DNA from: Myxococcales bacterium
GTDB lineage: Bacteria > UBA10199 > 2-02-FULL-44-16 > JAAZCA01
DNA: 64,000 nt
Reading direction: 5' to 3'
Assembly (NCBI GenBank): GCA_012513515.1
Contig: JAAZCA010000019.1
Location: 1-64,000, forward strand
Numbering within the stretch: position 1 is the stretch's first letter; each line of letters opens with the position of its first letter. The position numbers were made by a program, and so were the translations under genes. The notes below the pieces were generated by a model. The model was not told the DNA's origin. It saw only the letters and a list, made by a program, of their open reading frames with translations, and did not search any database. Of the stretch, positions 1,211 to 3,079 are shown in pieces.

Positions 1211-1349
1211 ACCCGCCATAAACGCTCGCCAAATAAACCCTTGGCTCGCACTCCGGGTACCCGCCGCTGTAATCACGGCGTCCGCATAATTCGCATCCGC
1301 CACTCAACAACGGCGTGCGAACCAGCCAGCTCCTCACCAGGATGAGCAC

Positions 1350-1386
1350 AAAAAAGTGGGGCGGACAAATCGTCCACCCCACTTTT
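1350..1386 (-). terminator. Bidirectional hairpin terminator after tRNA-Arg
   Basis: The arms AAAAAGTGGGG and CCCCACTTTTT are joined by an inner GGAC/GTCC stem. An A-run on one side and a T-run on the other let it work on both strands. It starts 3 nt after the last base of the tRNA on the minus strand. Confidence 0.8.
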
Positions 1387-1427
1387 TGCGCGCCCACCAG
1401 GAATCGAACCTGGGACCCTCTGCTTAG

Positions 1428-2101
1428 CTTCCTACTCTTGGTTTCCCAAGCATCATCTTCATTGAATGACGACAACTTGTAGGCTGGACTAGATCTTCAC
1501 CATTTCAGGTGCTGCACGTATAGTCTCTACGGAACCCTGCGATAATCGAAAGCCATTTTTACAAATTTCCTCCGGTTATTCTTGGGAGTTTTTACCCTCA
1601 AGCATGCTGTTCCTCGAAATTTTTTAGGATCTATATTCTATATAATAACACTCATCCGTGTCAGGACAGTAAATACAGTAAAGATCGACAGATTTTTTAT
1701 CTACAATCTCTGTGTGGCTTCCTTTCCTGTCCGTCCAATTGCTGCGAAAATTGATTTCGAGTTTCCCTTCGGTATCAAGAGACTTGTAGTTTACCTGTAC
1801 CATTTTGAACTTTCCATCTCTGTAAACAACTATGTCAAATGGGACATATTCTATAAGCGGTATCAGTACCTGATATCCCCGTTGATTTAAATCTGCTTGA
1901 GCCTTTAAAACTCCCAGGTCGCCCTTGTCCTCCGTATGATGCGTAGAAAACAACCTCCAAAGAAAGTCGCTATACAATACAAAAGGACAGGACAACCACA
2001 GGTTTCCTCGGGATTGCCATCAGCATTATCTGTTAAGGTTTCCCCGATACGGTGCAGTCCACTTTGCAGGTTGTGTTTCCCCACAAAGGCTCCTGTCGTT
2101 A
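1428..2101 (-). ncRNA. Group I self-splicing intron in tRNA-Arg (IC3-like)
   Basis: On the minus strand the sequence keeps the group I core in order. The P/P4 side is TCGGGGAAACC near 2037-2048 and the Q side GGCAATCCCGAG at 2007-2018. The R/P7 element is GTAGAGACTATACG at 1517-1530 and the S/P7' element GAAGATCTAGTCC at 1486-1498. The 5' part resembles the cyanobacterial tRNA-Leu(UAA) intron in motif order and wording (GTGGA, GGGGAAACC, GGCAATCC). An internal guide GAG near the intron start can pair with exon CUU, giving the required U-G pair at the 5' splice site. The final base is G (1428). The endonuclease ORF sits in a peripheral loop between the Q and R elements. Subclass assignment is by eye. 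Confidence 0.9.
1624..1995 (-). CDS. Intron-encoded PD-(D/E)XK homing endonuclease, probably decayed
   Basis: The frame gives 123 aa from a TTG at 1995. The family (PF11645, type I-Ssp6803I) is recognised from KGDLG (24-28), the GYQVLIPLIEYVPFD block (40-54), KMVQV (64-68), SNWTDRKGSHTE and the C-terminal YCPDTDECYYIE. Homologues normally start about 6 residues before KGD. Here a GGAGG ribosome site (1958-1954) lies 9 nt before an ACG (1944) exactly where ATG is expected. The Glu that follows KGDxG in active enzymes is Val29, and the catalytic Lys of the QxK pair is Asn69; Asp54 and Gln67 remain. The frame is open, but the enzyme is probably inactive. In active introns it would cut intronless tRNA-Arg alleles to drive homing. 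Confidence 0.85.
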   Translation of the reverse strand: MSCPFVLYSDFLWRLFSTHHTEDKGDLGVLKAQADLNQRGYQVLIPLIEYVPFDIVVYRDGKFKMVQVNYKSLDTEGKLEINFRSNWTDRKGSHTEIVDKKSVDLYCIYCPDTDECYYIEYRS

Positions 2102-2191
2102 AAGGCAGATGCTCTATCCCCTGAGCTACGGGCGCGAATTACATCTATTAATTCATATTTTCAAAGACCAGCGACTTCTCCCGACGACGGC

Positions 2192-2252: not shown

Positions 2253-2281
2253 TTGATTCCAAAGTCCCGAAAGAGGCCGGG

Positions 2282-2356
2282 TCGGGGTGACTGGATTCGA
2301 ACCAGCGACTTCTTGCTCCCAAAGCAAGCGCTCTAGCCAAGCTGAGCTACACCCCG
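2282..2356 (-). tRNA. tRNA-Pro(UGG)
   Basis: 75 nt without encoded CCA. The acceptor CGGGGTG pairs with CACCCCG and the discriminator is A. The D-arm is GCTC...GAGC. The anticodon stem CTTGC/GCAAG carries loop TTTGGGA (anticodon TGG). The T-arm is GCTGG-TTCGAAT-CCAGT. It lies 146 nt upstream of tRNA-Arg on the same strand and may share a transcript with it. Confidence 0.95.
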
Positions 2357-2378
2357 ACCCGATGTCTTTCGGGGTGCT

Positions 2379-2470: not shown

Positions 2471-3079
2471 TTATCCATTCCCTTTTTCCGACAAAATTTC
2501 AATCAAAATCGCCCTTATTTGCTGCAGAGCGCGCCCCCTGTGGCTTATGCTGTTTTTCACCCGCAGATCCAGTTCTGCCATGGTTTTGCCGAATTCGGGG
2601 AGATAGAAGAGGGGGTCGAAGCCAAAGCCGCCGCTTCCAGCAAAATCGCGCGCTATAATCCCTTCACAAATCCCTTCACTCTCCCACGTTCTGCCGTCTG
2701 GAGAGATGAGCGCCATAAAGCAGACAAACCTCGCAGTGCGCCTGCCGCAGGGAATCGTTCGCATTTCATCGAGCAGCTTTGAGTTGTTGGCCGCATGATC
2801 CCCCTGCTTGCCGGCATAGCGCGCGGAATGAACGCCTGGGGCGCCTCCCAGCGCATCGACCATTAATCCTGAATCGTCGGCGAGGGATAAGATTCCGGTT
2901 GCAAGGGCCGCCTCGCGCCCTTTCTTCATCGCATTTTCGCGAAAGCTGTCACAGTCCTCGAGAGTTTCGGAAAGATCAGGGAAATCGTCATACGAAAAAA
3001 TCTGCACATCGAGCCCCATCAGAAGATCCTCTATTTCTCTAAGTTTTCCCTTATTTCTCGTCGCAACGAAAAGTTTCAT
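2471..3079 (-). CDS. rdgB: XTP/dITP diphosphatase (RdgB/HAM1 family)
   Basis: 202 aa, the normal family length. It hydrolyses non-canonical purine nucleoside triphosphates (dITP, XTP) to monophosphates, keeping them out of DNA and RNA. Seen: N-terminal LFVATRNKGKLREIE (substrate loop), SLADDSGLMVDALGGAPGVHSARYAG (catalytic Asp and substrate contact), GFGFDPLFYLPEFGKTMAEL and SHRGRAL near the C-terminus. The start ATG 3079 has no strong ribosome site. The stop lies 12 nt from the truncated tRNA copy. It stands alone, divergent from the barrel gene at 3181. Confidence 0.95.
   Translation of the reverse strand: MKLFVATRNKGKLREIEDLLMGLDVQIFSYDDFPDLSETLEDCDSFRENAMKKGREAALATGILSLADDSGLMVDALGGAPGVHSARYAGKQGDHAANNSKLLDEMRTIPCGRRTARFVCFMALISPDGRTWESEGICEGIIARDFAGSGGFGFDPLFYLPEFGKTMAELDLRVKNSISHRGRALQQIRAILIEILSEKGNG

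Follow-up and report, generated by a model that had tools for sequence, protein, structure and literature searches.

Putative group I introns that interrupt tRNA-Arg-TCT genes have been recorded in Ca. Maribeggiatoa (BOGUAY) and Ca. Thiomargarita nelsonii, according to PMC4853749, which cites MacGregor et al. 2013. The locus described here lies in a window of 64,000 nucleotides from a Myxococcales bacterium (contig JAAZCA010000019.1). The host tRNA is the same as in these Beggiatoaceae and a putative group I element interrupts it in both. The first-pass annotation of the window had suggested a new host tRNA; this suggestion fails, the reports of 2013 and 2016 already covering it. The split Thiomargarita gene spans 324 nt only and thus leaves no room for an endonuclease, whereas the intron in the window contains an endonuclease gene. 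The 22-49 nt 'group I introns' of cyanobacterial Arg, Gly and Lys tRNAs (PMC5733544) were not counted as precedents, since a group I core would not fit into such lengths.

For the enzyme, the closest described system is the tRNA-fMet intron of Synechocystis PCC 6803, whose I-Ssp6803I is the sole enzyme of the PD-(D/E)XK kind that PMC1995217 lists among the homing endonucleases of bacterial tRNA introns. The ORF in the window belongs to the same protein family as I-Ssp6803I. The fMet and Arg(UCU) introns differ in host tRNA, in loop position and in the placement of the ORF, which is near the 5′ end in the fMet introns examined and in P6 in Arg(UCU) introns. The introns of tRNA-Leu(UAA) share with the window the 34|35 position, the P1 (CUU.GAG) and the order of the P, Q, R and S elements, but fall in a separate clade of the core tree (gammaproteobacterial rows compared). 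To our knowledge, they typically do not carry a PD-(D/E)XK gene. Free-standing endonucleases of the T4 Seg type, with their genes beside an uninterrupted target, resemble the mycobacterial and phage relatives of the ORF described below. However, the Seg proteins are of a different nuclease family, and the target of the window's family can also carry the enzyme gene within an intron. In the open-licence literature, no account was found of an Arg(UCU) intron lineage that crosses phyla, of the P6 location of the enzyme or of free-standing forms beside tRNA-Arg(UCU). The association of the enzyme with tRNA-Arg(UCU), rather than the intron of the window itself, is the more novel part of the present findings.

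The features of the locus are listed in Table 1. When the two exons were joined and submitted to ARAGORN, a 73-nt tRNA-Arg(tct) with all stems complete was obtained. Its anticodon loop reads C-U-U-C-U-A-A and is broken between bases 34 and 35. The coordinates given in the first pass, the exons of 34 and 39 nt, the intron of 674 nt, the loop CTTCTAA and the perfect tRNA-Arg formed on joining were all exact, with the gene on the minus strand. By its sequence, the hairpin directly 3′ of the 3′ exon is likely to be the terminator of the tRNA unit. An rdgB-like gene (2471-3079) adjoins tRNA-Pro-Arg in the window, and a similar coding stretch lies just upstream of tRNA-Pro and split tRNA-Arg in one relative (L065), which suggests an old gene order.

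Table 1. Features of the split tRNA-Arg(UCU) locus (window positions; all on the minus strand)
Feature	Position	Strand	Remarks
Strong hairpin and T-run	1346..1388	-	directly 3′ of the 3′ exon
tRNA-Arg(UCU) 3′ exon, 39 nt	1389..1427	-	begins CTAAGCAGAGGG
Group I intron, 674 nt	1428..2101	-	terminal G (GTAGGAAG)
P9 domain CCTAC...GTAGG	1431..1483	-	GAAA-capped hairpin CTTGG-GAAA-CCAAG (1450-1437)
S element AAGATCTAGTCC	1486..1497	-	with P7 3′ strand TAGTC (1491-1487)
P8 hairpin CACCTGAAATGGTG	1498..1511	-	29-intron alignment
P3 3′ strand GTGCAG	1512..1517	-	174/174 cells paired
R element GTTCCGTAGAGACTATACG	1517..1535	-	with P7 5′ strand GACTA (1525-1521)
Decayed C-terminal part of endonuclease	1527..1641	-	other frame after short tandem repeat 1641-1627; family's usual TAG at 1529-1527 in R/P7 region
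P6 insert with endonuclease gene	1537..2000	-	flanked by P6 strands GGAAACC (2007-2001) and GGTTCC (1536-1531)
Homing-endonuclease frame to early stop	1624..1953	-	TTG at 1953; open up to 1995; PF11645, E = 9e-27
AAC (Asn) codon at catalytic Lys of Q-V-K motif	1789..1791	-	Lys in 14/14 relatives of the alignment
Q element (P4 3′ strand) GGCAATCCCGAGG	2006..2018	-	
P element (P4 5′ strand) TATCGGGGAAACC	2037..2049	-	
P3 5′ strand CTGCAC	2052..2057	-	29-intron alignment
P2 hairpin CTTTGTGGG...CCTGCAAAG	2062..2088	-	97% paired over 29 introns; shuffles <=80%
Internal guide AGGAG	2090..2094	-	GAG:C32-U33-U34 = P1, U.G at 5′ splice site; AG:C35-U36 = P10
tRNA-Arg(UCU) 5′ exon, 34 nt	2102..2135	-	3′ end ...CTGCCTT (C32 U33 U34); ARAGORN on joined exons
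tRNA-Pro(UGG)	2279..2357	-	just upstream; conserved neighbour of interrupted or intact tRNA-Arg(UCU) in relatives

All of the P, Q, R and S elements are present and in order in the intron, as had been noted in the first pass. Both the U.G pair at the 5′ splice site and the terminal G of group I introns were found. In its peripheral elements the intron may resemble the subgroup IC3 introns of Azoarcus and Anabaena, which we take as a resemblance only. To assess the fold, Arg(UCU) introns at the 34|35 site were aligned (n = 29) and compared with shuffled partners, a comparison that ignores the kinship among them. The P3 strands, separated by about 70 to 540 nt, pair in all 174 cells (100%; shuffles <=82%), with as many as four pair types at one position and 18 distinct strand pairs despite wide sequence change. 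P7 and P8 are each 99% paired with compensatory changes, and P2 likewise covaries. The identical splice site and core of the 29 introns, together with the full covariation of P3, exclude chance. The locus is thus confirmed, at the level of sequence comparison, as a group I intron inside the anticodon of tRNA-Arg(UCU) at 34|35.

The internal guide accounts for the choice of site. Its (U)AG-GAG form is seen in most of the 29 Arg(UCU) introns. GAG occurs in 28 of them and GGG, which pairs too, in the remaining one; the preceding base is G in 29/29 (pairing with C35) and the next A in 26/29 (pairing with U36). Where the host is Leu(UAA), GAG is preceded by U-U, which matches A35-A36. The P10 bases of the two kinds of intron differ because their 3′ exons differ, and each guide matches its own 3′ exon, so that the host anticodon is matched by the guide to the left and to the right of the splice junction. 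The 34|35 site is common to the two tRNAs as both loops start with C-U-U. The position had been likened to the tRNA-Leu(UAA) intron site in the first pass, and this is supported. In the window P10 consists of two pairs only, which was counted against the best explanation given below.

The first-pass annotation had named a covariance match to RF00028 as the test on which the assignment could fall. At the locus nothing beyond chance matches appeared, although E values as high as 10 were admitted, and the failure was traced to the long insert: RF00028 misses the locus because about 460 nt sit in P6. A relative of the same class without the insert (L063, 222-nt intron) scored 40.7 bits (E = 3e-9) against a gathering score of 50 bits, which is a detection threshold and not a biological feature; related fMet introns exceed it (54-58 bits). 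The split gene was also not seen by ARAGORN, whose intron mode called tRNA-Pro on one relative, a misreading of the split gene. Relatives were collected with a model of the 3′ half of the intron, built from the window and two relatives.

The ORF in the P6 insert scored 94 bits with PF11645 (cut-off 26). A profile of the family matches I-Ssp6803I (2OST) at E = 1e-39, a match helped by the fMet-type members in the profile. Single-ORF phmmer searches of the PDB gave chance matches only, the family profile being required, and the ORF matched no NCBIfam family. The reading frame of relatives enters the intron core and stops at a TAG within R/P7, and the catalytic D...Q-x-K is kept in full. In the window D and Q are kept, K has become N (Q-V-N), and the final ~35 residues lie beyond the point where the frame is broken. 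The frameshift and the lost lysine together indicate that the enzyme is probably dead. By sequence, the window thus holds a decayed PD-(D/E)XK member of the I-Ssp6803I type. Neither this gene and its decay nor the wide spread of the intron lineage had been noticed in the first pass.

An alternative is that the endonuclease is still active and the intron still mobile, the frameshift being an assembly error and the Asn being tolerated. The break lies at a short tandem repeat, which might indeed reflect an assembly or sequencing error, and the fold-defining region is mostly open. Against this, there are two independent defects, the Lys to Asn change at a residue that is Lys in 14/14 aligned relatives and the frame break, and the protein sits on one of the longest branches of the enzyme tree. 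An active enzyme is therefore unlikely. The introns related to that of the window show the gene in several states: it is intact in seven (L061, L009, L019, L154, L157, L180, L183), broken in the window, L064 and L158, a fossil in L062 and L151, and absent in many. This series is what a gain, decay and loss cycle of homing genes predicts.

The dependence of the host on splicing was addressed from its genome (1.79 Mb, 99.3% complete, a 42-contig draft). The Arg tRNAs CCU, UCG, CCG and ACG are intact, as is the Leu(UAA) gene, and AGA codons are used in ordinary genes. No other Arg(UCU) tRNA was found in this draft, from which one could be missing, nor was a second intron of the same type found in the host genome. 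With no other Arg(UCU) tRNA, splicing should be essential. If, instead, the locus were a dead, disrupted pseudogene, an unassembled Arg(UCU) gene would have to do the work; the draft state of the genome, in which other tRNAs such as Val(UAC) and Ile(CAU) are likewise not found, gives this some room. However, the joined exons form a perfect tRNA, the core is intact, the genome is nearly complete and has no other UCU gene, and in relatives, too, the gene has its conserved location in the tRNA-Pro-Arg(UCU) pair. We regard a pseudogene as very improbable. Host genes were also not found for tRNA-Ile(GAU), His and Ala(UGC); some of the missing tRNAs may lie in unassembled rRNA operons or be split.

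The search for Arg(UCU) introns in related genomes, proposed in the first pass, yielded them in three bacterial groups. The gene is split in 8/46 genomes of the class of the window. It is intact directly after tRNA-Pro(UGG) in 3/3 genomes of the same family and in one of the same order, giving occupied and empty sites at one place. The 34|35 intron was also read in 17 genomes in a sample of 369 from gammaproteobacteria, and several were seen among 297 genomes of the phylum of a Rhodothermales MAG. A tree built from 49 core sequences places every Arg(UCU) 34|35 intron of the three groups in a single clade (100/100), to which neither fMet introns nor Leu(UAA) introns belong, the latter represented by gammaproteobacterial and not cyanobacterial rows. 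The nearest neighbours of the window intron include gammaproteobacterial introns. These results fit horizontal spread of one Arg(UCU)-adapted intron lineage, and the window intron appears to be part of a lineage spread among distant bacteria and present also in phages. The other suggestion of the first pass, an independent invasion of the same loop position, stands to the extent that Arg(UCU) introns are a clade distinct from those of Leu(UAA). Reverse splicing of a tRNA-Leu(UAA) intron into the Arg(UCU) gene within this lineage, with no transfer of an Arg(UCU) intron, would explain the common P1 (CUU.GAG) and 34|35 site, but it was already disfavoured and is the least credible reading, since the host's own Leu(UAA) gene is intact and the Arg(UCU) introns of distant phyla group apart from Leu(UAA).

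Other splits were met in the same survey. Arg(UCU) is split at a second site, 36|37 (CUUCU|AA), in L166, L184, L196, L207 and L208; the introns of L166 and L184 belong to the 34|35 clade, with the guide changed to match. A reading of L184 as an Arg(UCG) host was a misparse: with both splice sites moved by two bases it becomes Arg(UCU) at 36|37 with a matching guide. In four genomes of the window's class (L068-L071) tRNA-fMet is split by group I introns, each with an I-Ssp6803I-like ORF close to its 5′ end. Group I introns apparently also occur in tRNA-Lys(UUU) at CUU|UUAA (L187-L191, L203), a host for which no report was seen.

Taken together, the best explanation, which we hold with high confidence, is that a spliced group I intron splits the sole AGA-reading tRNA of the host, and that its P6 endonuclease has decayed, leaving it probably immobile. 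The anatomy, the covariation, the sole copy, the empty sites of relatives at the same place and the clade were observed; we infer self-splicing, DNA cleavage, homing and the loss of activity. The primary transcript, probably tRNA-Pro followed by split tRNA-Arg, would fold into the P1-P10 core. The guide 5′-AG.GAG-3′ would pair with the anticodon loop, at C32-U33-U34 in P1 (with U.G at the splice site) and at C35-U36 in P10. Transesterification initiated by guanosine would then excise the intron and join the exons to give the only AGA-reading tRNA of the genome; protein helpers may take part. In relatives, the P6 endonuclease probably cuts intron-less tRNA-Arg(UCU), and repair would copy the intron in. 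The gene in the window is frameshifted and without the catalytic lysine, so that its intron is probably no longer mobile, and would persist through the need of the host for splicing.

Relatives of the endonuclease occur outside introns as well. In nine mycobacterial records, ORFs 55-57% identical to that of the window lie ~50-110 bp from an intact tRNA-Arg(UCU), outside any intron. The gene is present in 7/79 sampled genomes of the mycobacterial genus, beside tRNA-Arg(UCU) in 7/7, and two copies are degenerate. The mycobacterial genes (L010-L018, L140, L143-L148) are divergent to the adjoining intact tRNA. On viral contigs and in phages (L209-L232, including Synechococcus phage Sf-FR1 and Acinetobacter phage Herod), 21/24 genes lie <=67 bp from an intact tRNA-Arg(UCU), representing perhaps 14 independent cases as some contigs are near-copies; Arg(UCU) makes up 22/102 of the tRNAs at these loci. 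On one viral contig (L225), a group I intron of Arg(UCU) (112 bits) houses the endonuclease gene. No plasmid records with the gene were found. A single clade of intron-borne endonucleases was not rejected in a tree test (p-AU 0.44). Beside the endonuclease of L209 is a tRNA with anticodon CUA (2902-2975) that was called as tRNA-Pyl; it may be a suppressor that arose from the Arg(UCU) tRNA usually found next to the enzyme.

The proximity of the enzyme to tRNA-Arg(UCU) supports this tRNA as its target and makes phages a plausible vehicle. We lean, somewhat beyond an even chance, towards a PD-(D/E)XK family dedicated to tRNA-Arg(UCU), intronic in several phyla and on a viral contig and free-standing in mycobacteria and phages, with phage tRNA genes spreading enzyme and intron between phyla. 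The association was observed directly, and the target and the phage route would follow from it.

Missed by ARAGORN and Rfam alike, the split tRNA-Arg(UCU) is omitted by standard annotation. An essential tRNA would be dependent on a ribozyme, and the lineage shows every stage of the homing cycle, with four states of the endonuclease gene and with occupied and empty sites at one place. A dedicated family, if true, would offer a natural experiment on the coming together of introns and endonuclease genes, and the link to phage tRNA genes offers a testable route for spread across phyla.
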